A DNA stretch of 43,139 bases. Origin: a virus. Both the position numbers and the translations under genes were made by a program. The stretch spans positions 1 through 43,139 of the IMG/VR virus record IMGVR_UViG_3300025085_000055, one strand, 5' to 3'. Under the pieces are notes generated by a model. The model was not told where the DNA came from, made no database searches, and was given only the letters and a program-made list of their open reading frames with translations. Shown here in pieces: positions 9,876-34,932 of the stretch (positions are counted from its first letter, which is position 1; every line of letters begins with the position of its first letter).

Positions 9876-12800
9876 ATGAGTACATATAAAGCACCAGATG
9901 ACAAAATATATAATATTCCATCTGACCCAAATGAGAGAGCTCAATTTGTTGCTGCTGTTAAAGAAAAATATGGTGAAGATTTAGACCAAACATCAATATT
10001 AGGACAAGTAGGAGAATTTGTAAAAGCAATACCAAGAGGTGCTGCTGGATTAGCTTTAGATGTGCCTACAGGTATTGTTGGTTTATTTGATATTGGCAAT
10101 GACAGTAATTTATACAAAGGTCTTGAAGGACTACAAGATAAACTAAGACAAGATTCTATATTAGCAGGCGACCCAGCTTATGCTGATAAATTTTCTACAA
10201 AACTAGGAGAAGGCGTAGGTTCATTCGGACCATTCCTAGGTGCAGGTCTAGCAGGAAGAGCTTTAACAAAAGTACCAGGAGCAGCTAAAGGTCTACTATC
10301 ACCAACATTTACAGCACCAGCAGCTTTAGCAGTACCAACAGGTATAGCAGCACAGGGTGATAGACTGCAAATGGCTAGAGAGATGGGTGAAGATGTAAGT
10401 GGTTTAGCAGAAACTACTGCTGAATTATTTGGTGGAGTTATAGGTCTAACAGAAGTATTACCTATTGCTAATATATTAGGCAAGGTTCACAAGAACGCAC
10501 CACTATCAGCTAAAGAAAAACTAGTATCAGCATTACAATCAGGTGCTGCAGAAGGTGGACAAGAGGTAGCTGCAAGTATATTACAAGACCTAACAGCTAG
10601 AGGACTCTATAGTGATGAGCTTCCTATTGGCGAAAGTATGTTTGAAGAGTTTACTATTGGTGGCATTATCGGTGGTGCTGCTGATTTAGTTGTTTCTAGT
10701 ATGGCTGGTAAAAAAGCTGTAAGAGACAAACAAATGGAAGAAGAAGGTCTTAGAGCCGAAGAAAAGAAAGAACAATTAATTTTAGCAAAAAAAGCAGAAC
10801 TAGCTCAAGAACAAGGGACACTTGATGTAGTACAAGATACACAAGTAGTTACAGTTCCACAAATACCTGCACCTAAAGAAGTTGCAGTAGAACCACAAGT
10901 AGAGATTATTGAAACACCTGACAATAAATTTTCTCTTATAGATATATCCAACCCTGACAGTCCTGTCGTATTAGATACCAAAGATAAACAAACAGATGCA
11001 TCTATAGCTAAACAAAAGCTATTAGATACTTTTGATGTAGCTCAATTAAAAGATACATTAGATAACGATACCTATAACTTAGGTATGGTTAATAGTTCTA
11101 CTGCGTATGAAATTGGTCAAAGTGTATTAGATACTAAAGCTGCTGATGTAAATATCCAACAGTTAATTAATACTGTGCCTGATAAATCTAAAACAGAAAA
11201 AAAATTAAAGAAAATTGTAGAAGATTATACGCAACAAACAGGTAGACCTATGAGTAGTATGCCTCGTATTAATATGAAAGAAGCTAAAGACTTGCTTACT
11301 ACAAAAGAGTTTAATGATTTTACTTCTGCATATGCAGAAAAAACATTTCAAGTATCAGAAAAAAAAGGCGAACCATCTATTATTGCTGATAAACAACAGC
11401 CTGATACATCAGTTAAATATGTAAAAGATATTGCAGCATCTAAAAATATTGATTTAGATTTTAATAGTCCTGCTGTTCAATATGCAGCAGAACAATACAC
11501 AGGTACTGCTGATTACAAAAAAATGAATAAAGGTCAAAAAGAATTATTCTTGGCTAAACTACATTCATTACCTAAGTTCAATTCTAGAACAACTTTTCCA
11601 GACTTTAAACCAAGAGATTATTCTGCACAAGAAACAGCAGACTTTGTTGCTGAAATGAAAAGCAATAACTCTACATTTACTAGAAAAGATTTATCTATGA
11701 TTGGTAAGAATGACCAGTTCTTAGAAGATTTACTTTATAGCGGTAGGGCAGAACAAGTAGAAGGAACTCGTAGCTATAAAATTAGAGATAACTTTGAGTT
11801 TGATATAGCTAGAAGGGCAGAAGGATTTAATGAAACACCACAAGAGTTTGGTGCAAGGCTTACTGCACAAGCATCAGAAAACAAACTTACACCAGAAGGT
11901 ATAGCAGAGCTTGTAGCAGCAGAAGAAACAAGACAAGAAAAATTACTACCACCAGCAGAGGTTATACCTAAGACAATTAACTATGCAGAAACTTTAGAAG
12001 AAGGTAAAACTAATAAATTTGCAAAAGAAGTTAGAAAAAATCTTAATAAAATGGGTCTTAAAGATACTGGCATTGTTATAAGTGATGACATTATCTCTAC
12101 AACTACTCTTAGAAAAGTAGAAGATAAAATAAAGTATGACCCTAGAATGTTGATTGACCCTAGAACTGGTAAAAAAGCTAGAGGTGAATATGATAAAAAT
12201 ACAGATACTATTTTCTTATCTCTTAATGCTGTAAATCCTGATGGCAATGCTACAGATATAGAAATACAACAACGATTAAATTCAATATTAGACCATGAAG
12301 TAATTCATGCTCTGCGTGCAAAAGATTTAATTACTGAAAAAGAATATCAATATCTTAAAAAACAAGTAGAACAACAAAAAGACCCAAATACAAAAAAAAC
12401 TTTTCTTGAGCAAGCTAAACTTGATTATGCAGATATTGGTCAAAAAACTAGAACGGCAGCAGAGGCTACAGAGTTTTATTATGAAGAAGCTATAGCAGAG
12501 CTATTTAGAAAAAAAGATTTACTAGTTAATAATCCTCCAAAGGTTCAAGGTATCTTTAAAAAGATAGTAGAGTTGTTTAAGTCTATGGGTCAAGCTATGC
12601 GTTCTTCAGGATATAAAAACGCACAAGATGTATTTAATGATATTGAATCTGGCAGAATAGGTAGTAGAGAAAGAGATGTAATACGAAGCACTAGACTTGG
12701 TGATAAAGAAAAAACTATGTTCTTAGATAGGATTCCACAAGATAAACCTGTGCCTCCTATTGATAGAGTGCCTGGAGAAGAAATTGTTTCTACGCTTAAG

Positions 12801-15800
12801 CCTAGAGGCATTAGACCTTTAACTATACCAAAGCCTAAACCAACACCTCCTACTACACCAACAACTCCTGTTACACCTGCAACTCCAACAACTATATATA
12901 ATAGAGCTAAATTAACAGATAAAGAATATAAAGCTGAAAGAGATATTATTCTCAAAGGTTTGCAAGATGCAAAAGTATTAGATAAAGATATTTTTGATAA
13001 AGATGGTAATGTAACTAAAACTGTTAAAGGTAACTATGATTCTGTAAAAATGATGAAGTGGCTGGTTGATAATTCTCCTAGTCAAGATTACAAAATTATT
13101 GCACAAAAAGTCCACAAGTCTTTATTAGCATTAAAAAAACAAAAAAGAACATTTCCTTTAAAACTTAAAGTTGGTAAAAAAGTTATAAATAGTCGTGCAC
13201 TTGGACAAGTTAGCCCAAGAAAACCTACTGACATTTTTGAAACATTAAATTTTTCTGAATTTACTATGTCTATTAATGATAGCAATAGAAATATATTAAT
13301 GGATGAATCTAAATGGAGAAGAGGTAATGGTGTAAATTTTGAAACACTATTACATGAAGGAATACATCAAGCTACATTAGCTCAAATATATGCTGTACGA
13401 GAAAATACAACCACAAGAGTTGCTGATTCAGGAACGATGGCTATTGCAACTGATAAAAAAGGATTAAAAGTTAAAGCCGCATATAAAGAATTAAGTACAC
13501 AAGCAAAAAGAATACAAAAATATTATAGAGATAGAATGAAATTCTATGATAAATTATCAGATAAAATTGAAACTCCAGAAGGTCTTAAAGAATATAATGC
13601 TATTTATAATAATGCTCCTGTAATAGAAAAAGAAATAGCTGATATATACATTAATACAGATTCAACTGGTTTTAAATTTAAAAGAAGTGAAGGATTTGGA
13701 TATGGAATGGAGTTTGGTCAAACAGAATTAAGACAAGCATTTAATCAATATAGAATTAGATATCAGTTATTTTCAAATGAAGTTCAAGCAAATGAAGATG
13801 TATCAGAGTTATTAACTTTTGGATTAACAAATAGAGAATTTCAAGAAATGCTTGAATACATACCATTAGGCAAAGATGCAACTGGTAGTGTATGGAATAA
13901 ATTTGTAGAAACTATTAGAAAATTATTAGAGATACCTGCAAAACTTAATACAGAATTATCTTCATTTCTTAAAAATGCTTCTACAGCCTTAGACCTTAAA
14001 GCAGAAGGAATAAAAGCACCTTTTGTACCTGATAGTAAACGAGAAATATCTCAAGACATACCTACCTTTAGTAGAGCAGAAGAACCTATAGGTAAATTTA
14101 CTATAAAAAAAGATGAATATGTTGAAGGTAATATTAATGTAGGAAAAATACTTGGATATGATGTAGAAATATATAGAGATACAGGTGGTCTAGGAGGTGA
14201 AAATTATTCTATGATTATTACAGACCCTAGAGTTGATATGGACACTGATTTTAAGTCTATAGGTTTGTATAGTAAAAACTTACAAGAAGCAAAAGAAGAT
14301 GCTGTAGACAAAATTCAAGGATTAATTAATGATGGAGATATTGTAGACCCTACTTCAGTTTATTTTACAAGAGGTATAGGACCAAGAGAAACATTAGCAA
14401 AACTTAAAGATACAGATACAGATTTACCTACATTTAGTAGAGAATCAGATGATGCATACTTTGCAAGAGAAAAAAAGAATCAAAGAATATCTAATTTAGA
14501 ATCTATTATTTATTCTAAAGAAGCACAGCTAAGTCAAGAAAGAGGTAGTATGAGAAATGCTACTGCCAGAAGATTAGAAAGAGAAATAGAACAACATAAA
14601 AATGAAATAGCTGAACTAAAAGCAGGAGATTTACCTACATTTAGTAGAGGTCAAAGATTTAATGATGGCATTAATTCTCAAAAGAATATTAAATTAGCAG
14701 ATGCTCTAGCAGAAGCTGAAGAAACAGTTAAACAAACACCTAGGGGTGCAATACCTTTTTACAATCTAAACGCCTCAGACATGGCTTTAGAAGTTGCTAT
14801 AGACTTTAATAAAGACTTATCTGCTACAACTCCAGAAGATATACCTACATTCTCTAGACCAGGATATGATGGCATAGACTCTGATATAGCAGAAGCATCA
14901 GAAAGACTTGGTGGTAAATATCAACCTGATAGGTCTTGGGGTGCTAGAACTATAGAAGCTGTTAAAGACCCAGTTACATCTATTAATAGTTTCTTCAAAG
15001 ACTTTAGACAAAACTTTATAGATAAGTTAGACAAAATAGACAAGAAAATAATGAAAGCTTCACAAGATAGTGAAGAGGTAAGATACTTTAACAATACAGC
15101 AGATACAGCAACTATGGCTGCTTTAAGATTAGCAGATAGAGCAAGAGGTCTATTTCAAGGTATGCTTACTAGAGGATATGTATCTGATGTTATAGAAGGC
15201 AATTCAGCATTAGCAAATGTTAAAGATTTAGAATTACAGAATGGAGAAACAGGTGGTCTTATACAGATACTTGCACCATTGTTTAGTAATCCAGAAGTAA
15301 ATTTAGAAAAAGTATTTAAACTTTACGCTACATTAAAAAGAGCAGAAAGTTTTGATGCCCAAGGAAAGTTAGTAGAGACACCTGTTAAAGCAGAGGACTA
15401 TGCCCTAATACAAAGAATAGAACAACAACATCCAGAAGTATTAGAAGTCTATAACAACTATCAAACTTGGAATAATAAATTAATAGATTTTGCTAAAAAG
15501 AAAGGTTTGTTAGACCCTGAACAAGCAGAACTATGGGAAACACATTCTTCATATTATCCTTTCTATAAAAATATGGTTGATGATACTGGAATACAAGGAC
15601 CAAGTGTTGCAGGAGGTTCATTACCTAATAATCCATTATCTATTAAAATAGAAGGTTCAGAAAAACCTATAGATGTAGACCCAATAGAAGCTATATCAAG
15701 AAACTCATTATCTATTCTTACAGCAGCATTAAAAAATGATGGTACTCAAAAATTATTAAGAGATTTAGAATTAATAGGTGAAGCAAAAGAATTAAAAACA

Positions 15801-17570
15801 CCACAAGAAATAAAAGCTAACAAAGCTAATAGAATGTTTGTTTTTGAAAATGGACAAAAGAAATTTTATAGAGTTAACGATATAAATTTATTTCATGGCA
15901 TACAAGGAATAGGTGGAGTTAATACAGGAACAATCACTAAAATATTAGCTTTTCCAGCAGGTATCTTAAGAGATACAGTTACTCGTGACCCAGGATTTGT
16001 TGTTATTAACATACTTAGAGATACATTATCATCTGCTGTAACAAGTGGTGCACCTTATACTCCTGTTGTAGATTCAGTTAAGAATATGTTTAGAGACATG
16101 GAAAACTTAGAAAAGTTTGGTGTTCTTGGTGGGTATGACTTTTCTAATGATGAAGGTAGTGTAAAACAATTCATTACTAGAACTATGAGACAGAAAGGAC
16201 TAACACCAGAAAACGGAATGTCAGCCTCTAGTGCTTTCTTTAAAGTATGGGATGGATTAGGAGCATTAACAACCAAGTCTGATGGTGCAACTAGATTAGC
16301 TGTGTACGAAGGAGTTTACAAGAAACTAAAAGAAGAAGGATATACAGAAGCACAAGCTCAATCCGAAGCTGCGTTCCAGGCACTAGAAATAATAAATTTT
16401 GGAAGGCGTGGATTAGACCCTATGTTCAAAGTCATCACTGCTGCGATACCATTTTTAAATGCAAGAGTGCAGGGTCTTGATGTTCTGTATAGAGGATTAA
16501 CTGGTCAATACTCTTCTGTTGAAAAACTACAAGAAGGAGAGACGCTCCAGGATGTACAATCAAGAATATTAAGACGAGCAGCCCTGAACGCTGGCTTGCT
16601 GGTATCTTTAACAGCACTCTACTATATGATGGTAAGTGACTCAGATGAATACAAAAATCTGAAACGAGAAGTAAGAGATGATAACTGGGTCATGCCTATA
16701 GGCGATGGTCATGCAGTTAAGATACCAATTCCATTTGAAGTAGGTATGCTATTTAAAGCTATACCTGAAAGAGTCTTTGATATGACAATGGGTGAAGATG
16801 CATTTACAAGAAAGTCTGTAGATGAAGCACTTACAACTACAACAAGACAGTTACAAACATCACTAAATATACCATTTTTCCAACCAGGTGGTGGTTTACA
16901 ATTACTGAAACCTATAGCAGAAGTCTATAATAATAAAAATACTTTTACTAACACAGAGATTGTTCCCTACTATCAACAGAAAAAAGAAGCTGGACTACAA
17001 TCAAGAGCAACTACCAATGAGTTAGCTAAAGTTATGGGAGAGTTCTTTAACATATCTCCATCTAAGATAGAGCATGTTATGAGAGGTTATACAGGCACAC
17101 TTGGTGGATATGTATTAACTGCTATTGATACTATCACTAGAGGAGCTACAGGGAGTCCTCTGCTACCTTCTAACTTCCAATTAAGTAAGATGCCAGTCTT
17201 TAACCGACTATTACTAGACTTAGATAAGTCAGGCGGATATCAGCAACAGTTCTATGAATTAAGGAATGAGGTTGACAAAGCTGTTCAGACTATCAATTCG
17301 CTTAAAAAACAACAACGCTTTGATGAACTATCAGCTTATAGAAGCAATATGCAAGGTGTTTTAAATGTTAAGGGTCAAGTCAGAGCAATAGATAGGTATC
17401 TATCTAATTGGAGAGAGCGTAGAGATAGGCTTATGAGGAACGAGAACATATCACTAACTGTTAAGTCAGATATGCTTAGAGACTTAGAACTAGAAAGAGA
17501 TATGCGACTAGCTATGATTCCTGAATTGAGGAAGAAAGCTAACATTCCTGTTATCACTATGAACCTCTAA
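9876..17570 (+). CDS. Giant internal/ejected virion protein (polyvalent, LPD38-like C terminus)
   Basis: A 2564-residue protein, the largest in the window. The N-terminal 150 residues have Gly/Ala-rich hydrophobic segments (GAAGLALDVPTGIVGLF) as in proteins injected with phage DNA. Two zinc-peptidase-like HExxH motifs occur: HEVIH at 807-811 (with EEAIAE about 60 residues later as a possible third ligand) and HEGIH at 1160-1164. Four [D][IL]PTFSR motifs mark boundaries at residues 1394, 1516, 1585 and 1655. The C-terminal part (about 1690-2560) contains RDPGFVVINILRDT near 2037 and resembles the large polyvalent-protein domain LPD38. It probably enters the host with DNA. The 3' end overlaps the convergent minus-strand gene by 63 bases. 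Confidence 0.85.
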   Translation: MSTYKAPDDKIYNIPSDPNERAQFVAAVKEKYGEDLDQTSILGQVGEFVKAIPRGAAGLALDVPTGIVGLFDIGNDSNLYKGLEGLQDKLRQDSILAGDPAYADKFSTKLGEGVGSFGPFLGAGLAGRALTKVPGAAKGLLSPTFTAPAALAVPTGIAAQGDRLQMAREMGEDVSGLAETTAELFGGVIGLTEVLPIANILGKVHKNAPLSAKEKLVSALQSGAAEGGQEVAASILQDLTARGLYSDELPIGESMFEEFTIGGIIGGAADLVVSSMAGKKAVRDKQMEEEGLRAEEKKEQLILAKKAELAQEQGTLDVVQDTQVVTVPQIPAPKEVAVEPQVEIIETPDNKFSLIDISNPDSPVVLDTKDKQTDASIAKQKLLDTFDVAQLKDTLDNDTYNLGMVNSSTAYEIGQSVLDTKAADVNIQQLINTVPDKSKTEKKLKKIVEDYTQQTGRPMSSMPRINMKEAKDLLTTKEFNDFTSAYAEKTFQVSEKKGEPSIIADKQQPDTSVKYVKDIAASKNIDLDFNSPAVQYAAEQYTGTADYKKMNKGQKELFLAKLHSLPKFNSRTTFPDFKPRDYSAQETADFVAEMKSNNSTFTRKDLSMIGKNDQFLEDLLYSGRAEQVEGTRSYKIRDNFEFDIARRAEGFNETPQEFGARLTAQASENKLTPEGIAELVAAEETRQEKLLPPAEVIPKTINYAETLEEGKTNKFAKEVRKNLNKMGLKDTGIVISDDIISTTTLRKVEDKIKYDPRMLIDPRTGKKARGEYDKNTDTIFLSLNAVNPDGNATDIEIQQRLNSILDHEVIHALRAKDLITEKEYQYLKKQVEQQKDPNTKKTFLEQAKLDYADIGQKTRTAAEATEFYYEEAIAELFRKKDLLVNNPPKVQGIFKKIVELFKSMGQAMRSSGYKNAQDVFNDIESGRIGSRERDVIRSTRLGDKEKTMFLDRIPQDKPVPPIDRVPGEEIVSTLKPRGIRPLTIPKPKPTPPTTPTTPVTPATPTTIYNRAKLTDKEYKAERDIILKGLQDAKVLDKDIFDKDGNVTKTVKGNYDSVKMMKWLVDNSPSQDYKIIAQKVHKSLLALKKQKRTFPLKLKVGKKVINSRALGQVSPRKPTDIFETLNFSEFTMSINDSNRNILMDESKWRRGNGVNFETLLHEGIHQATLAQIYAVRENTTTRVADSGTMAIATDKKGLKVKAAYKELSTQAKRIQKYYRDRMKFYDKLSDKIETPEGLKEYNAIYNNAPVIEKEIADIYINTDSTGFKFKRSEGFGYGMEFGQTELRQAFNQYRIRYQLFSNEVQANEDVSELLTFGLTNREFQEMLEYIPLGKDATGSVWNKFVETIRKLLEIPAKLNTELSSFLKNASTALDLKAEGIKAPFVPDSKREISQDIPTFSRAEEPIGKFTIKKDEYVEGNINVGKILGYDVEIYRDTGGLGGENYSMIITDPRVDMDTDFKSIGLYSKNLQEAKEDAVDKIQGLINDGDIVDPTSVYFTRGIGPRETLAKLKDTDTDLPTFSRESDDAYFAREKKNQRISNLESIIYSKEAQLSQERGSMRNATARRLEREIEQHKNEIAELKAGDLPTFSRGQRFNDGINSQKNIKLADALAEAEETVKQTPRGAIPFYNLNASDMALEVAIDFNKDLSATTPEDIPTFSRPGYDGIDSDIAEASERLGGKYQPDRSWGARTIEAVKDPVTSINSFFKDFRQNFIDKLDKIDKKIMKASQDSEEVRYFNNTADTATMAALRLADRARGLFQGMLTRGYVSDVIEGNSALANVKDLELQNGETGGLIQILAPLFSNPEVNLEKVFKLYATLKRAESFDAQGKLVETPVKAEDYALIQRIEQQHPEVLEVYNNYQTWNNKLIDFAKKKGLLDPEQAELWETHSSYYPFYKNMVDDTGIQGPSVAGGSLPNNPLSIKIEGSEKPIDVDPIEAISRNSLSILTAALKNDGTQKLLRDLELIGEAKELKTPQEIKANKANRMFVFENGQKKFYRVNDINLFHGIQGIGGVNTGTITKILAFPAGILRDTVTRDPGFVVINILRDTLSSAVTSGAPYTPVVDSVKNMFRDMENLEKFGVLGGYDFSNDEGSVKQFITRTMRQKGLTPENGMSASSAFFKVWDGLGALTTKSDGATRLAVYEGVYKKLKEEGYTEAQAQSEAAFQALEIINFGRRGLDPMFKVITAAIPFLNARVQGLDVLYRGLTGQYSSVEKLQEGETLQDVQSRILRRAALNAGLLVSLTALYYMMVSDSDEYKNLKREVRDDNWVMPIGDGHAVKIPIPFEVGMLFKAIPERVFDMTMGEDAFTRKSVDEALTTTTRQLQTSLNIPFFQPGGGLQLLKPIAEVYNNKNTFTNTEIVPYYQQKKEAGLQSRATTNELAKVMGEFFNISPSKIEHVMRGYTGTLGGYVLTAIDTITRGATGSPLLPSNFQLSKMPVFNRLLLDLDKSGGYQQQFYELRNEVDKAVQTINSLKKQQRFDELSAYRSNMQGVLNVKGQVRAIDRYLSNWRERRDRLMRNENISLTVKSDMLRDLELERDMRLAMIPELRKKANIPVITMNL
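14055..14858 (+). repeat. Four [D][IL]PTFSR protein motif repeats
   Basis: Heptapeptides DIPTFSR or DLPTFSR are encoded at 14055-14075, 14421-14441, 14628-14648 and 14838-14858. Spacings are 122, 69 and 70 residues. They lie between the peptidase-like half and the C-terminal domain of the giant virion protein and look like inter-domain boundary tags. FSR-type motifs are common between domains of phage polyvalent proteins; a protease-processing role is inference. Confidence 0.8.
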
Positions 17571-23375: not shown

Positions 23376-25166
23376 ATGTATGTCAATAGCGAAATGAATA
23401 AAAGAGATTTTTTAAGTCATATCAACAATCAATCTCGCACTAGCGGAATGAAGCAGGGTCAACACAAAATCCCATGTCCTGAATGTCAGCATGACAGGTC
23501 AAAAAACAAACACGACAAACCATTATCTGTAAACATAGATAATGAAAAAGTTATATATCATTGTCATCATTGTGGCACAAACGGATTAATACCAAGGACA
23601 GAAGGAACAGTTATGAATGTAGTAAAGAGCGTTAAAAAAGTAGAACCAGTAGCACCAGTAAAACCAAAATCTATACCCAAAAACAATTTAGATTCAGAGT
23701 CAGCAAAATGGTTGGAGGGCAGAAAAATATCTCCAAAGGTTGCCGAAGCATCTGGTTGCGTCATCTCAGATAAAAATAATAAACCAGTCATAGGTTTCTC
23801 GTTTGAGTCTGGTGGCGAAGTTGAAGCAGTAAAGTATAGGTCAGCAAATGGTACTAAGACTTTTTGGTGGGAAGGTAATGCACAAAAGTTATGGGGTAAA
23901 CAAACTGTAGACAAGTCATTACCAACAATGGAAAGTACCATAATCATTACAGAGGGAGAGATGGATGTACTTGCTATCAAGACTGCTTTTGATGGAGTAA
24001 TGAATGTGAATTGCTATTCAGTTCCCAATGGTGCTCCTAATAAGATTACAGATAACAAGATAGACCCAAGTGAAGATGGAAGATTCAAGTATGTTTGGAA
24101 TGATAGGGAAAAGTTTGATAATGTTGAAAGGGTAATTCTATGTACTGATACAGATGATAATGGAAACATCCTTGCAGATGAACTTGCTCGTAGATTAAAC
24201 AAAGCTAGGTGTTATAGAGTAGATACTTTAGATTGTAAAGATGCCAATGATGTATTGATTAAACATGGAGCAGAAAAATTAAGGAAAGCTATAACAAGTG
24301 CAGAGCCTATTCCTTTACATGGATTAAACAGTTTAGAACACTATGAAGATGAATTCCAAAGTCTATACGAAAAGGGTATGCCAAGTGGTGTGTCAACAGG
24401 TTTTCCAAGTGTAGATAAGATATTCAGTTTATCTACAGGAAATTTAGTTGTTACTACAGGTCATGCAGGAGATGGCAAGTCAGCGTTTATTGACCAATTA
24501 ATAGTTAATGTTGCTAGGAATAGTGGTTGGAAAACTTGTTTTTGTTCTTTTGAAAAGCCAGTTCAACTTCATGCGGTTCAGTTATCGCAAATCCTAGTTG
24601 GTAAACCATTCTTTGAAGGACAAAACGAAAGGATGAATCAAGAAGAAAAAGACTTTGCGGAGTCATGGATTAAAGAACATATACTATTCCAAGATTATCA
24701 AGATGGTGGTATGCCAACAATAGAAGCTATCTTAGAAAAAGGTGCAAGTGCGGTAATGAGAAAAGGGATTAGGATTTTAGTCATAGACCCATTCAACTTT
24801 ATTCATACAGACCATAAAGGATTAGAGACTGATATGGTTTCTGAAATGCTTACAAAAGTTCAACTCTTTGCAAAGCAACATGATGTATTAGTTTTCTTTG
24901 TAGCACATCCAACTAAACCATTTATAAGAGATGGCAAAAAGAATGTTTGTACTGGTGTTGATGTAGCTAAATCATATGCTTGGTTCTCAAAAGCAGATAC
25001 AGGTTTAACAGTTTATCGTGGAGAAGAGGGAGTTGAGATACATAATTGGAAAGCTAGGTGGGGATGGCAAGGCTCTCTAGGAAGTGTTAATATGTCCTTT
25101 AACCCAGTAAATGGAAGATATGCAGAAATCGAAGCAGTTGCAGATAACTTTGATTGGGAGTTCTAA
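23376..25166 (+). CDS. Primase-helicase, T7 gp4-like
   Basis: A 596-residue replication protein. The ATG at 23376 follows AAGGAGG. An N-terminal zinc finger (Cys34-x2-Cys37 and Cys63-x2-Cys66) reads primer sites on template DNA. A TOPRIM domain follows with TEGEMD (Glu193) and CTDTDD (Asp258, Asp260). The C-terminal RecA-like helicase has Walker A GHAGDGKS (362-369), Walker B ILVIDPFNF and VLVFFVAHPTKP. It should both synthesise primers and unwind the fork. It is expressed away from the recombination operon and may be under the palindromic sites upstream. No DNA polymerase is visible in this window. Confidence 0.92.
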   Translation: MYVNSEMNKRDFLSHINNQSRTSGMKQGQHKIPCPECQHDRSKNKHDKPLSVNIDNEKVIYHCHHCGTNGLIPRTEGTVMNVVKSVKKVEPVAPVKPKSIPKNNLDSESAKWLEGRKISPKVAEASGCVISDKNNKPVIGFSFESGGEVEAVKYRSANGTKTFWWEGNAQKLWGKQTVDKSLPTMESTIIITEGEMDVLAIKTAFDGVMNVNCYSVPNGAPNKITDNKIDPSEDGRFKYVWNDREKFDNVERVILCTDTDDNGNILADELARRLNKARCYRVDTLDCKDANDVLIKHGAEKLRKAITSAEPIPLHGLNSLEHYEDEFQSLYEKGMPSGVSTGFPSVDKIFSLSTGNLVVTTGHAGDGKSAFIDQLIVNVARNSGWKTCFCSFEKPVQLHAVQLSQILVGKPFFEGQNERMNQEEKDFAESWIKEHILFQDYQDGGMPTIEAILEKGASAVMRKGIRILVIDPFNFIHTDHKGLETDMVSEMLTKVQLFAKQHDVLVFFVAHPTKPFIRDGKKNVCTGVDVAKSYAWFSKADTGLTVYRGEEGVEIHNWKARWGWQGSLGSVNMSFNPVNGRYAEIEAVADNFDWEF

Positions 25167-28395: not shown

Positions 28396-29748
28396 CTAAA
28401 GATTTTCCATGTTGATATGTACTGTTTCGCCAAATGGATATTTATAATATTCTCGCATATAACTTTCGTTTGTACTTAACGCCCATATAACTGGAACGCT
28501 AGGCTCAACTTCAGCATCAACGCTACAATATCCATCAGTGAAATATACAAAAGCAATAACATCTTCAGTATCTTCAGTTTCATCGTTGAACAAATTAAAG
28601 GGTGGTTCGAACCTAGTTCCTCCTCCACCTCTTAAATTGAACTCCAACTCTTCATTATCCAAATCAAATTCATCCCACCATTCTCCAGTTGTAGGATTCT
28701 TTGCAATTGATGTATCACAATAAGTTACTCTAACTTTATTGATACCGCACTCTTCACATAAGTTTTGAGTTTCAGTAGCAAATATATTGAGTTCTTGTTG
28801 AGATACACTCGCGGAAGTATCTATTGCAACTACAATTTCTCCGCCTTGCGGTTCGTTGTCATTGCTAGGTAAATTGACACCCCTCCAAGAATGTCTTTTA
28901 TTTAGTCTGCTCCACGTTGGATTATTGCTCTTAGCGGAATTTAATAAATCTCGCATTACATCAACCCAATCAACATATGTCTCATTGAGTTTTTGCACCG
29001 CACCATTCATTGTAGAAGTACCACCTTCAGAACATCCCTCTAACTTATCTGCCATCAAGATTGCTCGTTGTATGTTTTCTTTTACTTCCGCCATAGCACT
29101 ATCAGATAATGGATTACCCTCTTCATCAGTTGGCATCCAAACTTCACCCATTGATGGTTTCATATCTGCTAGTTCATCCAATAAGGATTTACCGCTTCCA
29201 TTTCCATCTTGGCTTTCATCTTCGTTGCCATCATCAGAATCAGAGTTACCATCATCATTTTGGGAATCGCCTTCGCCACCTTCAGATTCATCAGAATCTT
29301 CAGACTTAGATTTCATTTCTTCAATGGCATCTTCTAAGGCTTCATCATCATTCATTAAAGTTCTATAGACTGCTTCAGAACTCATGCCTTGATATCTTCT
29401 ATCAAGCAATCCATCTTTAGGCAGTTCCATATTCAAGTCATACTTAATCCATGCATTGATAACATAGTCAGTTGCTACATTCCAAACCTCGTGATTTCGT
29501 TTAGCTTTTCTTAATGGATGCTCCCATATTACATGGCTAGCTTCGTGGACTAATACCGCTTGAATTTCATCATCAGTTAATGTCTTAACAAATTCATCAT
29601 TCCAGTAGATATTGACTCCATCAGTAGCCATCGTTTCACATCTATCGCTAGCTTCAATCAATTCAAGACTAAGAAGCATACTTGCCATTCCTATATTGCC
29701 TTTCATCAATTTCGCTCTAGCTTTTATTATTCTATTTTCACTATTCAT
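28396..29748 (-). CDS. VWA-like / metallopeptidase-like protein (DUF2201 type)
   Basis: A 450-residue protein of two domains. The N-terminal domain has HEASH at residues 68-72 (VLVHEASHVIWEH), a zinc-peptidase-like motif. An acidic linker (about residues 149-186) follows, then a C-terminal von Willebrand A-like domain with the MIDAS core Asp310-x-Ser312-x-Ser314 (AIDTSAS) and a FTDGYC strand. Proteins of this form act with MoxR AAA+ ATPases in metal-insertion or complex-remodelling chaperone pairs. The partner ATPase is encoded two genes upstream. Hammerhead C and an SD hairpin precede it. Confidence 0.85.
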   Translation of the reverse strand: MNSENRIIKARAKLMKGNIGMASMLLSLELIEASDRCETMATDGVNIYWNDEFVKTLTDDEIQAVLVHEASHVIWEHPLRKAKRNHEVWNVATDYVINAWIKYDLNMELPKDGLLDRRYQGMSSEAVYRTLMNDDEALEDAIEEMKSKSEDSDESEGGEGDSQNDDGNSDSDDGNEDESQDGNGSGKSLLDELADMKPSMGEVWMPTDEEGNPLSDSAMAEVKENIQRAILMADKLEGCSEGGTSTMNGAVQKLNETYVDWVDVMRDLLNSAKSNNPTWSRLNKRHSWRGVNLPSNDNEPQGGEIVVAIDTSASVSQQELNIFATETQNLCEECGINKVRVTYCDTSIAKNPTTGEWWDEFDLDNEELEFNLRGGGGTRFEPPFNLFNDETEDTEDVIAFVYFTDGYCSVDAEVEPSVPVIWALSTNESYMREYYKYPFGETVHINMENL

Positions 29749-29765
29749 AATACCTCCAAGTATTA
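29748..29765 (-). promoter_or_regulatory. Shine-Dalgarno hairpin, loop UUGGAG (gene at 29748)
   Basis: Arms UAAUAC/GUAUUA (6 bp) around UUGGAG; the 3' arm reaches the A of the start codon. Confidence 0.7.
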
Positions 29766-29770
29766 ATTTT

Positions 29771-29844
29771 ATTGATACCTAAAAAATATTTAACTGGTAA
29801 ATATTCTCTAGGTTTCTGCTTATCTCAAAGCTTCATCAGTCAAT
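29771..29844 (-). ncRNA. Hammerhead ribozyme C (type I)
   Basis: Minus strand, circularly permuted relative to the others: stem I AUUGA (29844-29840) pairs with UCAAU (29775-29771); core CUGAUGA (29839-29833); stem II GCUU-UGAGAU-AAGC with flanking A-A; core GAAA (29816-29813); stem III is a 16-bp hairpin with loop CCAGU (29813-29777); cleavage triplet GUA, cut between 29776 and 29775. Stem I begins directly after the upstream stop codon. Confidence 0.85.
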
Positions 29845-30813
29845 TTATTTCTTAAACATATTGTCTAAGAAACCTCCCTTTAATTCATCAATGGAATCTT
29901 CTAAATCATCCGCAACTTGCTTTCGCTTGTTTGCACCATAACTTGATTCATCCCTTAGTGAATCTACATCATTAATTGAAGCAAATACGCCTACCAACTT
30001 TTGATGTGCATCAGCAATCATTTTGTCATCGCCTAAAATGTCTGCATTGATACTAGGTAATGTATCTAAGAACCCTCGCAATTTATCAAAGCTTGAGTTC
30101 TTAAAGAACCCTCCCTTTTGTTTGTCGTTAGGGTCATAGGATTTTAGCTTGTCCGCTAAATGTCCTACTGATTCAAGTAAAGCTTCTACAGTAGTTCTAG
30201 CAATCGTTTCAACATTTTTATTTGCTCGTTTAAGAGCATCGTTTTCAATTTTTGCTTTCAGCTTTTCTGATACATTTAATCTGATATCCTTGGTATCGAA
30301 TCTAGGAACAGTACCCAATTCAAAATCGAATCTGAATTTAGTTTCTATTTCCTCAACGCTAGGATAATCAGATAATTTAAAGGCATTACCAAGTTTCACT
30401 TTATTGGCTTCAATCAAGTTGTCATAGTTATCAATAAACTGTTTAACCTCTTTTTCAAAATCCATCTTAGCTTGGTCAACCCTATTCATCAGCGTATCTA
30501 GTTCGCGGTTAGGACATAGTCTCCAACCACTTAGAACCTTCCCTTCAAAATCACTTGTATTGTCATCCCAAGGGACAGTTAAAGGGTAGTACACATCGTT
30601 TCTAAATTTGTTGATAATTCTACGAAAATACTTATTCGTATCTTTACCAAAAATGTATTTAGCAACGTGTAATGATTCGCTCATTGCTTCTTGGTCTATC
30701 GCTAAACCTTCCTTCAAATACTTGTCTGATTTTACTCCGCTAGGGTGCTTCGTATTAAGGCGAACTAAAGTCGCATTTTCAGATAAAGTATTTACATTAT
30801 TTTCTTTTTTCAT
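29845..30813 (-). CDS. DUF3150-like protein of MoxR/VWA cluster
   Basis: A 322-residue protein. The ATG at 30813 is chosen because the SD hairpin sits directly before it and the longer frame to 30849 would run through the ribozyme. The sequence is mostly helical, with a conserved-looking FRNDVYYPLTVPWDD segment near residue 68 and a long helical region from about residue 130. It resembles DUF3150 proteins, which are often encoded beside MoxR ATPase and VWA genes. It could be the substrate adaptor of the ATPase/VWA pair. Family assignment is from memory of the pattern. Confidence 0.65.
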   Translation of the reverse strand: MKKENNVNTLSENATLVRLNTKHPSGVKSDKYLKEGLAIDQEAMSESLHVAKYIFGKDTNKYFRRIINKFRNDVYYPLTVPWDDNTSDFEGKVLSGWRLCPNRELDTLMNRVDQAKMDFEKEVKQFIDNYDNLIEANKVKLGNAFKLSDYPSVEEIETKFRFDFELGTVPRFDTKDIRLNVSEKLKAKIENDALKRANKNVETIARTTVEALLESVGHLADKLKSYDPNDKQKGGFFKNSSFDKLRGFLDTLPSINADILGDDKMIADAHQKLVGVFASINDVDSLRDESSYGANKRKQVADDLEDSIDELKGGFLDNMFKK

Positions 30814-30830
30814 ATTACCTCCAAGTAATA
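30813..30830 (-). promoter_or_regulatory. Shine-Dalgarno hairpin, loop UUGGAG (gene at 30813)
   Basis: Arms UAUUAC/GUAAUA (6 bp) around UUGGAG, with the A of the AUG in the closing base pair. Confidence 0.7.
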
Positions 30831-30836
30831 AAGTTT

Positions 30837-30886
30837 GCTGTTTCATCATTTTTGAATCATCAGTCAGAATTACATTCTGATACAGC
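30837..30886 (-). ncRNA. Hammerhead ribozyme D (type III)
   Basis: Minus strand: stem III GCUGU/ACAGC (5 bp); cleavage triplet GUA, cut between 30881 and 30880; stem I UCAGAAU-GUA-AUUCUGA (7 bp); core CUGAUGA (30863-30857); stem II UCA-AAAA-UGA flanked by a U-U mismatch; core GAAA (30844-30841). It lies between a long hairpin and the SD hairpin of the gene at 30813. Confidence 0.88.
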
Positions 30887-30888
30887 TA

Positions 30889-30936
30889 GCGGAAAAGGAA
30901 TATTTACCAGTCAATAATAAATATTTCCTCTCCCGC
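30889..30936 (-). repeat. Long intercistronic hairpin, loop with ACUGG
   Basis: An 18-bp stem with one bulged A (30918-30936 with 30889-30906), loop UUAUUGACUGG. It starts about 12 bases after the stop of the MoxR-like gene and ends three bases before hammerhead D. Equivalent in place and size to the hairpin before hammerhead B. Confidence 0.7.
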
Positions 30937-30947
30937 CAATCAATCAA

Positions 30948-32012
30948 TTAAATCTCAATATCTTGATTTTCTACCTTGAACTTTGAGTATGAACTGGAAT
31001 CTTTTAATTCAGTTCTCAAAGTCGTTAGTTTTCTAACAAAGAATATTGAAAATTCAACAGTCGATAGTTGCTTCACATAGGCTAATGCATTGTCGAACCA
31101 GTCGTATACATCGCTATCTTTTGCTTTACCAATTACATCAACTAATGCAATCGTTGTGGCATAAGATAATCCAGCACTATCAACAAGTTCTACATCCTTA
31201 CCCTTACATATATCAGCAAGGTTAGGCACGTTGTTTTTCAATGAAATAAAGTTCATCAATTCAATGCTAGCATTTTGCCCAACATCGCCTTCAAATAATT
31301 TTTGCATTATTTGTTTAGGCGGATTGGTTTTCAATGTATCGCTTAACCTTGTCCAACTTCTTGGACTTGGCTGAGGGTCATTGCATTTAGGGTCGAACTC
31401 CCAAAGTAGTTGTGGCATATATCCAATTAATCCTTGGACATCCATATGAACATCATTCTTATCAGCCCATGCTAACCAGTCCTCAACATCGTGAGTAAAC
31501 TGAATTGCAGTCGTTCTATCTTGGCAATGCCTAAGAATTTTATTCGCACCACTTCTATCAGTATGCCTATTGCCTGCTAGTACAATTTTCCATCCATTTG
31601 GGAAAACATAATCGCCAATTCTACGCTCTTCGTTTTGCCCTTTTGGGTCTAATAATTGTCCTATCGTTGCTTGCACGCTTGAATGTGCTTGAGCAAATTC
31701 ATCTAAGAAAAATACCCCTTCGCCACCTCTAGGTAAATTCCCTAGAAACGCCTTCTTTTGAGTACCATCTTCAATGTAAGGCAATCCGCCTAAGTCGATA
31801 GATTCAACTAACCCCAATCTAAAAGAAATGAATCCAAATTCATTATCTTTAGGATTGACTGAATCAGTCAAAGTCCTATCTTCCGCTAGTTCCTCCGCAA
31901 TCTCTTTAACAATTGCGGATTTACCTACGCCAGTTCCACCAATTAAGAATGGAATATTATTCCCTTTCAGAACTGATAGACATGACATTTTCGCTTCGCT
32001 TGGTTTAAACAT
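30948..32012 (-). CDS. MoxR-type AAA+ ATPase
   Basis: A 354-residue ATPase. The ATG at 32012 (MFKPSEAK) follows GGAGG and the SD hairpin. Walker A is GGTGVGKS (residues 25-32), Walker B GVFFLDEF (99-106), and sensor 1 is in VLAGNRHTDRSG. The layout and the L-x-x-S-I-D-L-G-G-L-P segment before Walker B match the MoxR/CbbQ clade. Such ATPases form hexamers that remodel protein complexes with a VWA partner. That partner is encoded two genes downstream in the same operon, so the pair is probably functional together. Confidence 0.88.
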   Translation of the reverse strand: MFKPSEAKMSCLSVLKGNNIPFLIGGTGVGKSAIVKEIAEELAEDRTLTDSVNPKDNEFGFISFRLGLVESIDLGGLPYIEDGTQKKAFLGNLPRGGEGVFFLDEFAQAHSSVQATIGQLLDPKGQNEERRIGDYVFPNGWKIVLAGNRHTDRSGANKILRHCQDRTTAIQFTHDVEDWLAWADKNDVHMDVQGLIGYMPQLLWEFDPKCNDPQPSPRSWTRLSDTLKTNPPKQIMQKLFEGDVGQNASIELMNFISLKNNVPNLADICKGKDVELVDSAGLSYATTIALVDVIGKAKDSDVYDWFDNALAYVKQLSTVEFSIFFVRKLTTLRTELKDSSSYSKFKVENQDIEI

Positions 32013-32016
32013 AATT

Positions 32017-32032
32017 AATACCTCCAAGTATT
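32017..32032 (-). promoter_or_regulatory. Shine-Dalgarno hairpin, loop UUGGAG (gene at 32012)
   Basis: Arms AAUAC/GUAUU (5 bp) around UUGGAG, four bases before the AUG of the MoxR-like gene. Confidence 0.65.
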
Positions 32033-32428: not shown

Positions 32429-32908
32429 ATGAGCAATACAAAAAAACCAAGTCTAAGTGTAGTTAAAAAAGAACTAGAACTAACCATCAAGCAACGCCAG
32501 TTTGTGGATGAAATTATCAAGGGCAAGTTGGGTAGTTATAAAGAAGCATATGCAAAGGTCTATGATGTTACTTTAACCAAGCAAGGGAAGATACCTAAAT
32601 GGGTAGAGGTGGAAGCAAGCAAGCTTGTAGCGAACCCTAAGATTGCACAAAGCATACATAAGGCTATTGAACGTAAAGAGCAGTCAGCAGTTGCTAGTAG
32701 CCTTAGAACAAGAAACTATGTCATAGACCAGTTATATAGAGAGTCCAAGGAATCAGACTCAGATTCAGCTAGGATTAGAGCCTTGGAACTACTAGGCAAG
32801 TCAGTTAGTTTGTTTAGTGATGTAGTAGAGACCAAGGAAGCAAGGACAAGTGATGAAGTTGAGAGAGATATTGAAGAGCGTATCGAAGCATTACTAAGCA
32901 ACCAATAG
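32429..32908 (+). CDS. terS: Terminase small subunit
   Basis: A 159-residue protein. The segment LTIKQRQFVDEIIKGKLGSYKEAYAKVY (split, residues 18-45) is the helix-turn-helix start typical of small terminase subunits, which recognise packaging DNA. The middle and C-terminal parts are helical (IRALELLGKSVSLFSDVVE) and should form the oligomerisation region. It begins the plus-strand packaging and head operon and is separated from the large subunit by a 527-base gap with repeated sites. No Shine-Dalgarno sequence is obvious before the ATG. Confidence 0.85.
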   Translation: MSNTKKPSLSVVKKELELTIKQRQFVDEIIKGKLGSYKEAYAKVYDVTLTKQGKIPKWVEVEASKLVANPKIAQSIHKAIERKEQSAVASSLRTRNYVIDQLYRESKESDSDSARIRALELLGKSVSLFSDVVETKEARTSDEVERDIEERIEALLSNQ

Positions 32909-33071
32909 ACAACCAACAACCAACTATCTAATAGGTCAACACATAGGCTGTGTGTGTGCTGTATGTGGTGCGATATGTCCATGCACTATATATAGGGGTA
33001 GACACAAGATGTTGTGTTACCAGATGATCGTTGAACCACTACATATTGTGTTTGGATTCCGCCACTATTAA

Positions 33072-33248
33072 TAGACCCCCTCCCCCCTTTTGTGTGTGCG
33101 GGACTCCTACTATCTTATATACATAGTGATATGCACAGGATATTACTCATTTTCATAGACCCCCCCTATATATTGCATTTTGATAGCGTTTTGTATAGAT
33201 ATCATATATAATTTGTTCCAGGAAAGACCCAAGGGACCCTAGACCCCC
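33072..33248 (+). repeat. Three TAGACCCCC iterons, 84-base period
   Basis: TAGACCCCC starts at 33072, 33156 and 33240; both intervals are exactly 84 bases, equal to eight turns of B-DNA at 10.5 bp per turn. The copies would face the same side of the helix, as expected for an oligomeric DNA-binding protein such as the small terminase subunit. Confidence 0.75.
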
Positions 33249-33324
33249 AATATTATTTTGTAAAAATGGTTGTTTTTCCTGTGAAGATGTGCAATTATGT
33301 TAAAATCTAGCGTGATTTACATCT

Positions 33325-33426
33325 AGTAGGTACCTACTTGTAGAGTATTTACTTATTAAGTGCCACTTAGTGGTAGGAACTTAGTAAGTTTTTATTTTTA
33401 GGAAGTACATACTTACTATCTAGTAT
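33325..33426 (+). promoter_or_regulatory. Palindromes before large terminase
   Basis: AGTAGGTACCTACT (33325-33338, perfect), ACTTATTAAGT (33351-33361), CCACTTAGTGG (33363-33373), ACTTAGTAAGT (33379-33389) and AAGTACATACTT (33403-33414). AAGTACATACTTACT matches AAGTAGATACTTACT at 23303 in 14 of 15 bases, and TATCTAGTAT (33417-33426) also occurs at 23332. These suggest shared regulation with the primase-helicase gene. Confidence 0.6.
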
Positions 33427-33435
33427 AGGAGATGT

Positions 33436-34932
33436 ATGAGTAACCAAATATTAAGCCAAGTACAAAACCTTTCTTTGGATGAGAAGAGAGAGTTTCTAAG
33501 TTTATTAGATGAATTAGAAGAAGCTAAAGCCAGAGAGAAGTGTTCTACAGATTATATGGCGTTTGTTAAAGAAGTTTGGAGTGCTTTTATCCATGGTCCC
33601 CACCATCAAGTTATGGCGGATGCCTTTGAAAGGGTAGCCAATGGTGATTTAAAGCGTCTCATCATCAATATGCCACCTAGACATACCAAATCCGAGTTTG
33701 CGTCTTACCTATTACCTGCATGGTTTCTGGGAAGCAGACCTGAAAAGAAGATAATACAGACAGCACATACCGCAGAATTAGCGGTAGGTTTTGGTAGGAA
33801 GGTTAGAAACCTTGTAGGAAGTAAAGATTATAAGAAAATATTCCCGAATGTTAGTTTGCAGTCGGATTCCAAAGCTGCGGGTCGTTGGAACACGAACAAA
33901 GGCGGTGAATATTTTGCTATCGGTGTAGGTGGTGCAGTTACTGGTAAAGGTGCTGACTTACTTATCATTGATGACCCGCACTCTGAACAAGAAGGTGCAA
34001 GTTCAGACATAAATGTTTTTAATCGTACCTATGAATGGTATACATCTGGTCCAAGACAGCGTTTACAGCCTAATGGTGCAATCGTTGTAGTGATGACAAG
34101 ATGGCATAATAAAGATTTAACTGGTCAAGTTGTGGATGCTAGTGTCAAACGTGGCGGAGCCGACCAATGGGAAGTTATAGAACTGCCTGCAATCTTACCT
34201 TCTGGTAAGCCTTTGTGGGATGCTTTCTGGAAGTTAGAAGAGTTGGAAGCTTTGAAGGCTGAATTGCCTAGTTCAAAGTGGATGGCTCAGTATCAACAAG
34301 ACCCTACTTCTGAAGAGGGTGCTTTAGTTAAAAGAGAATGGTGGCAAGTATGGGATGGAAGAAATCCTCCTGACTGTGAGTTCATTATTCAATCATGGGA
34401 CACAGCCTTTTTAAAAACCCAAAGAGCTGACTTTTCAGCTTGTACTACATGGGGAGTTTTCTACAAAGAAAATGATGATGGTTTTGTGGCACCCAATCTT
34501 ATACTCTTAGATGCCTATAAGGAGCGTCTAGAGTTCCCAGATTTAAAGAAAATGGCTTTTGAGAAGTATAACGCCTATAAACCAGATGCGTTCATTGTAG
34601 AGGCTAAAGCAGCAGGCTTGCCTTTAATCTTTGAACTTAGACAAACAGGCATACCAGTACAGGAATATACACCGAGTCGTGGTAATGATAAAATATCTAG
34701 GGTAAATGCTGTATCTGATTTGTTTGCTTCAGGCGTTGTTTGGGCACCAGAAACAAGATGGGCAGAAGAAGTTGTAGAAGAGTTTGCTGGTTTCCCTAAC
34801 ATGGAACATGACGATTTAGTTGATAGCAGTACGCAAGCTCTGTTAAGATTTAGACAAGGCGGTTTTGTTCCTCTAGATTCTGATGAAGAAGATGAGCCAA
34901 TAGAACACAATCGTAAAGCAGATTATTACTAG
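33436..34932 (+). CDS. terL: Terminase large subunit
   Basis: A 498-residue packaging motor. The ATPase half has a Walker A variant PPRHTKSE (residues 80-87) and Walker B DLLIIDDPHSE (174-184). The nuclease half has the RNase H-like acidic residues Asp322 (SWDTAF), Glu389 (FIVEAKAAG) and Asp459/Asp460/Asp463 (HDDLVDS). It cuts concatemers and drives DNA into the capsid through the portal. The start is an ATG with GGAGA upstream, within a field of palindromes. A portal gene follows after nine bases. Confidence 0.93.
   Translation: MSNQILSQVQNLSLDEKREFLSLLDELEEAKAREKCSTDYMAFVKEVWSAFIHGPHHQVMADAFERVANGDLKRLIINMPPRHTKSEFASYLLPAWFLGSRPEKKIIQTAHTAELAVGFGRKVRNLVGSKDYKKIFPNVSLQSDSKAAGRWNTNKGGEYFAIGVGGAVTGKGADLLIIDDPHSEQEGASSDINVFNRTYEWYTSGPRQRLQPNGAIVVVMTRWHNKDLTGQVVDASVKRGGADQWEVIELPAILPSGKPLWDAFWKLEELEALKAELPSSKWMAQYQQDPTSEEGALVKREWWQVWDGRNPPDCEFIIQSWDTAFLKTQRADFSACTTWGVFYKENDDGFVAPNLILLDAYKERLEFPDLKKMAFEKYNAYKPDAFIVEAKAAGLPLIFELRQTGIPVQEYTPSRGNDKISRVNAVSDLFASGVVWAPETRWAEEVVEEFAGFPNMEHDDLVDSSTQALLRFRQGGFVPLDSDEEDEPIEHNRKADYY

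Follow-up and report, generated by a model that had tools for sequence, protein, structure and literature searches.

A near-fixed array of C-runs between the terminase genes of a virus lineage: a possible packaging-initiation region merged with a terL promoter

Results

The gap between terS and terL

The window (the whole stretch of DNA analysed here) is a virus record of 43,139 bases, from a marine phage. Its two terminase genes are separated by a non-coding gap with a G+C content of 37%, against 35% window-wide, and a search for open reading frames found none of 60 aa or more confined to that gap. The features of the region are listed below, with array offsets (slots) counted from a block A start at window position 33114, and a C-run defined as four or more C.

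32429..32908, + strand: terS, small terminase subunit (159 aa); PF03592 Terminase_2, phrog_51
32909..33435, no strand: non-coding gap of 527 bases, containing the whole element
33076..33080, + strand: C-run 1a (C5), within the first TAGACCCCC copy, slot -38; C4 or more in 50/64 relatives
33082..33087, + strand: C-run 1b (C6), slot -32; 63/64 relatives
33109..33127, no strand: block A, the AT-rich quasi-palindrome ACTATCTTATATACATAGT; near-invariant columns in 64 relatives
33160..33166, + strand: C-run 2 (C7), slot +46; 57/64 relatives
33171..33187, no strand: block B, TATTGCATTTTGATAGC; conserved columns, and the only exact match in the window
33232..33240, no strand: odd-centred dyad AGGGACCCT beside C-run 3; the sole GGGWCCC in the window
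33244..33248, + strand: C-run 3 (C5), slot +129; 58/64 relatives
33280..33308, + strand: promoter-like block TGTGAAG...TGTTAAAATCT, with hexamer TAAAAT at 33301-33306 and TG before the hexamer; unique in the window
33325..33425, no strand: several short GTAnnTACTT-type repeats plus the palindrome TAGGTACCTACT, past the promoter-like block and ahead of terL; seen in relatives as well
33436..34932, + strand: terL, large terminase subunit (498 aa); phrog_38 (E=6e-105), PF17289

A sequence-only reading of this DNA had placed three C-rich copies between terminase genes with terS just upstream, and the matches of the two neighbours to PF03592/phrog_51 and to phrog_38 confirm that setting. The terS product scores 27.3 bits against PF03592 Terminase_2, just above the cut-off of 26.1, and matches phrog_51 with E=1e-12; PF03592 is also matched by the TerS of 28 of 30 relatives. 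This Pfam family, to which the TerS of SPP1 belongs, is that of the SPP1/SF6 type, and the window TerS bears a weak likeness to SF6 TerS. Searched by tblastn against 50,697 phage records, the window TerS gave no match, and Foldseek with a structure model of modest confidence (pLDDT 71) gave no confident structural match (nothing at E <= 0.001). The nearest annotated relatives are HTVC023P-type pelagiphages, with TerL proteins 51-59% identical to that of the window; the window portal is also closest to theirs (39-43% identical).

Elsewhere in the window, a MoxR-like AAA ATPase, an unmatched protein and a DUF2201 VWA/metallopeptidase-like protein lie in tandem on the - strand beside terS (28396-32027), and a 2564-aa protein encoded at 9876-17570 has PHROG matches that are all of unknown function.

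The three C-rich copies are part of a larger element

The sequence TAGACCCCC occurs on the + strand at 33072-33080, 33156-33164 and 33240-33248, with start-to-start distances of 84 and 84. The repeat and its spacing are thus exact, as had been claimed, and these are the only exact matches on both strands of the 43,139 bases, where 0.06 would be expected and none of 100 shuffles reached three. The whole window has eight runs of C5 or more and one of G5 or more, and four C-runs fall within 33076-33248.

Relatives were retrieved by TerL (80), by block A (106 stretches) and by TerS (80). Removal of those more than 93% alike reduced 197 segments to 70, and six of these, whose contigs start inside the gap or a gene so that block A was wrongly placed, were dropped, leaving 64 for comparison. 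The conserved parts follow a single order: C-run doublet 1, block A, C-run 2 with block B, short dyad with C-run 3, promoter-like block. Besides the four slots listed above, C-runs occupy slot -76 in 30 of the 64 relatives and slot +91 in 20, and a G-run occupies slot +172 in 13. Not every slot is filled in these non-redundant relatives, and the start positions of the C/G-runs within a slot have standard deviations of 1.0-2.7 bp. C5/G5 runs are about 56-fold denser within the element (11.8 per kb) than outside it (0.21 per kb). An A precedes each C-run in most relatives, while the other flanks differ from slot to slot. At the C-run 2 slot of four loci (L005, L012, L018, L019) a G-run partly replaces the C-run, giving forms such as GGGGTACCCC, and in L012 the same partial replacement is seen at slot -38.

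Seen against this background, the 84/84 spacing belongs to a larger element, of which it is the part that shows in the window because four of the slots are filled there. The first TAGACCCCC copy corresponds to the weaker half of the C-run doublet (33076-33080 plus 33082-33087), less conserved than the second half. Three literal copies are present in 15 of 190 full-length gap segments, counted among redundant relatives, and in five of those 15 they stand 84/84 apart. Conservation of an 84-base phase had been proposed as a check, and it gave a divided answer: an approximate spacing of 80-85 bp is kept, but exact 84/84 occurs in 3 of the 47 relatives that have all three tracts. Because the exact spacing is so rare, strict helical phasing is not conserved, and we rejected exact 84-bp phasing as a conserved rule. 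The further claim that the sites lie on one face of the helix did not hold up in the relatives: there the first spacing ranges over 82-89 bp and the second over 77-86 bp, with intermediate C-runs 37-44 bp apart, so that a single helix face is not conserved.

Six slot pairs fit a period near 83.5 bp, with a chance of 0.02 by Monte Carlo over periods of 60-110 bp, a figure that is post hoc and affected by shared ancestry. We regard this period as a weakly supported lead.

The array is a compact unit, unique to the terminase gap

Distances between the parts separate the array from its surroundings. From the end of block A to the start of block B the standard deviation is 2.1 (mean pairwise identity about 70%, 58/64 relatives), and from the end of block B to C-run 3 it is 2.8 (identity about 61%, 58/64). 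The distance from C-run 3 to TGTGAAG ranges over 12-44 bp (standard deviation 4.9), and that from the end of terS to block A averages 152 bp with a standard deviation of 56 bp (61/64 relatives). The array therefore behaves as a fairly rigid unit, loosely placed relative to the promoter-like block and more loosely still relative to terS; its interior being tighter than its distance to the promoter-like block suggests that it is a unit of its own. Within block A the right half, ATACATAGTG, is the most conserved part, or core, and the conserved form of block B after C-run 2 in relatives is TATTGCATTTTGnTAGC.

Block A lies 311-335 bp from terL in 83 of 96 loci, 296 bp in two and 498 bp in 11. In the 11 loci with the longest distance, a small extra ORF lies between promoter-like block and terL, with array and promoter staying together; one such ORF (L026:349-540) encodes 63 aa, is hydrophobic and has no PHROG match.

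The window contains the element once, and among the matches listed it turned up in terS-terL gaps alone. Eight of the 106 stretches matching block A lack terS/terL and are chance matches. Among the 204 loci listed for block B, 192 lie beside terS/terL, another two are fragments from the ends of such contigs, and the remaining ten have neither C-runs nor block A. Chance matches aside, no satellite carrying the site was seen among the block A matches and the block B matches listed.

A promoter-like block and a dyad accompany the array

Downstream of the array, TGTGAAG is present with up to one mismatch in 64 of 64 relatives, where the conserved block reads TGTGAAG...TAAAATCT. A TAxAAT-type hexamer occurs in 58 of the 64, at 20-21 nt from the start of TGTGAAG in 57. 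A consensus promoter scan did not call this block. The dyad beside C-run 3 takes other letters in relatives (TAGGAATCCTA, AAACACTGTGTTT and more), and a stem of five or more is found in 36% of 58 relatives, compared with 4% of shuffles and 8% of random segments.

The dyad extends beyond the lineage of the window

HTVC023P-type pelagiphages (HTVC027P, HTVC023P, 023Pt_psg01) provide a wider comparison, and the HTVC027P- and psg01-type loci have a GGGWCCC dyad before terL, as does the window. Among loci L289-L448, the 300 bp before terL contain the dyad in all 71 HTVC027P-type loci (71 of 71) and in 47 of 67 of the psg01 type; for control segments the figure is 0.2%. The locus counts exclude 9 and 13 loci, respectively, of 80 each that had too little upstream DNA. 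Its centre is 23-24 nt before TTGAYT in the 26 loci with a strict promoter pattern (20/71 and 6/47). The dyad might perhaps be an operator or a packaging dyad of a large pelagiphage group.

Other parts of the element are distributed differently. Block A was not found before terL in HTVC027P-type or psg01-type loci, nor were blocks A and B found in HTVC027P at up to two mismatches. In the 500 bases before terL, psg01-type loci have 1.6 C5/G5 runs per kb versus 0.25 outside, and HTVC027P-type loci show no enrichment (0.20 versus 0.18). In HTVC027P and psg01, terS lies 3-5 kb off on the other strand, whereas in the window it adjoins the gap. Two loci with TerL 66% and 73% identical to that of the window (L449, L450) have a terS-like ORF close before terL, with no comparable gap or C-run array. 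From these sequence comparisons, dyad and promoter look old in the broad group, and the regular array is a property of the window's own lineage.

One of these two loci, L450, comes from a Dehalococcoidia MAG (CP070693.1) in which the phage TerL (73% identity across residues 36-301) is followed by a stretch of N and then by what by eye is an isoleucyl-tRNA synthetase-like gene, perhaps a chimeric join or a masked stretch.

Contig ends and circles

Many contigs end in the gap. Of 80, 29 stop no more than 560 bp upstream of terL and 3 stop no more than 560 bp downstream, one storage-set end having been dropped on each side. The ends scatter over many positions, often within or next to C-runs, and this coincidence suggests that they are probably assembly breaks, as expected from strain differences in C-run length. 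In the HTVC027P-type group, which lacks the C-runs, about 17 of 80 loci likewise end within 500 bp upstream of terL, a count that may include storage-set ends. Contig ends were accordingly rejected as proof of virion ends, being scattered, located at C-runs and frequent in control groups too. Among the long contigs, 3 of 11 carry the same sequence at both ends (over 98, 98 and 36 bases) and can be joined into 57-59 kb circles that include the gap. These circles are consistent with a permuted genome, headful packaging not being separable here from replicating intracellular DNA.

Discussion

By analogy with SPP1, and with a window TerS of the SPP1/SF6-type family, we favour reading the gap between terS and terL as a cis-acting, pac-like region that TerS would recognise, where packaging would begin and which is combined with the terL promoter; we give this reading a little under an even chance. 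From the observed position, uniqueness, layout and near-fixed spacing of the element we infer TerS as its ligand, together with wrapping, cleavage and feedback. TerS, made from the gene just upstream, would assemble on the C-run array and wrap or bend the DNA, touching it at intervals of 37-45 bp, with alternate contacts 80-85 bp apart. TerL, recruited in this way, would cleave close by, block A or the dyad being possible places. SPP1 TerS represses in this manner at its own pac and promoter, and array-bound TerS would likewise damp the terL promoter.

The packaging site suggested by the sequence-only reading keeps part of its footing, in a unique site with terminase neighbours and near-fixed C-runs, but the promoter-like block and the dyad point to transcription. 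Further observations weigh against a pac-like region. The site is downstream of terS, unlike the pac of SPP1, and the TerS model had no confident structural match. The DNA-binding domain of SF6 TerS has been reported to have little sequence preference; relatives of psg01 have C-runs before terL, yet TerS matches in only 2 of 80 loci; and L449 and L450, which lack the array, indicate that it is lineage-specific.

A more specific version of the packaging proposal is that the signal is coded by spacing, such that interleaved registers of about 83.5 bp mark turns of DNA round a TerS ring and spacing, more than sequence, identifies viral DNA. One register would comprise the C-runs at -38, +46 and +129, and the other the C/G-runs at -76, +91 and +172, with block A in its empty slot. 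We consider this version a long shot.

The main rival, a serious one although we hold it to be rather unlikely, is that the gap is a late-gene control region with no packaging role. In that case terL and the structural operon would be transcribed from the promoter-like block, and an activator or repressor, of phage or host, would bind the dyad and the C-runs. It draws on the presence of the promoter-like block in all 64 relatives, and on the extra ORF of 11 of 96 loci, which leaves array and promoter together. It draws also on other lineages, where GGGWCCC, at its fixed 23-24 nt from TTGAYT, looks from sequence like an operator and favours transcription over packaging. Against it stand a promoter block and array that each occur once in the window, other late genes having no further copy in front of them, a loose distance between array and promoter, a promoter that the consensus scan did not call, and an array of about 250 bp, which is large for a simple promoter. 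Packaging and transcriptional roles may both be true.

If TerL instead made staggered nicks in the gap, virion DNA would have fixed cohesive ends there. Such a cos site would fit the frequent contig ends upstream of terL and the presence of dyad-like sequences. It appears quite improbable: those ends are spread over many positions and often lie inside C-runs, about 17 of 80 HTVC027P-type loci likewise end near terL although they have no C-runs, and three of the long contigs circularise through the gap.

The direct repeats of the gap, its AT-rich, non-coding character and the turning point of strand bias located there would suit a replication origin with iteron-like C-run sites, but that turn also tracks gene direction. 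The neighbours are terminase genes with no adjacent initiator gene, the primase/helicase gene (23376-25166) being about 8 kb from the array; no DnaA-like box was found in the gap at up to one mismatch; and the repeats share only A plus a C-run, near-identical longer repeats not having been found. We judge an origin very improbable. The short dyads with changing letters beside C-run 3 would suit a gap-encoded structured RNA or leader, but such a product is scarcely credible given that RNAalifold on the 64 sequences found no consensus fold on either strand and no Rfam family came near its gathering score in the gap.

A 2022 review describes the way in which TerS picks out viral DNA as unresolved (PMC9611059). 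The present element is small and natural and has many diverged homologues that keep the spacing although much of the sequence differs, and it would allow wrapping to be tested against sequence reading. No pelagiphage group known from the ocean is more abundant, according to one description (PMC12753301), than that of the nearest cultured relatives, and its packaging or late-gene control would therefore be of wide ecological relevance. Our literature search, judged mostly from titles and abstract beginnings, turned up no apparent description of the element.

Two known systems offer points of comparison. Lambda cos (cosN/cosB) is, like the window site, a multi-part site beside terminase genes, but it lies before terS, whereas the window site lies between terS and terL. 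A cos of the lambda kind has an IHF site between its TerS sites; positions 32909-33435 hold no match to the IHF consensus WATCARNNNNTTR, although the host factor may differ. The pac of SPP1 has three sets of direct repeats and overlaps the PL1/PL2 late promoters and the start of gene 1, and SPP1 TerS is described there as lowering transcription of the motor operon (PMC4737164, PMC6316719). That pac overlaps the start of terS, while the window site comes after terS and before terL. Because the position relative to terS differs, and TerS binding and TerL cutting are predicted steps in the window, we do not claim membership of the SPP1 type. Where the pac of SPP1 and SF6 overlaps promoters, the window gap has a conserved promoter-like block, predicted from sequence, and its repeats differ in being C-runs at near-fixed steps of 37-45 and 80-85 bp. 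What the window shares with the pac of SPP1 and SF6 is a site beside the terminase genes, direct repeats across the region and a TerS of the same Pfam family.
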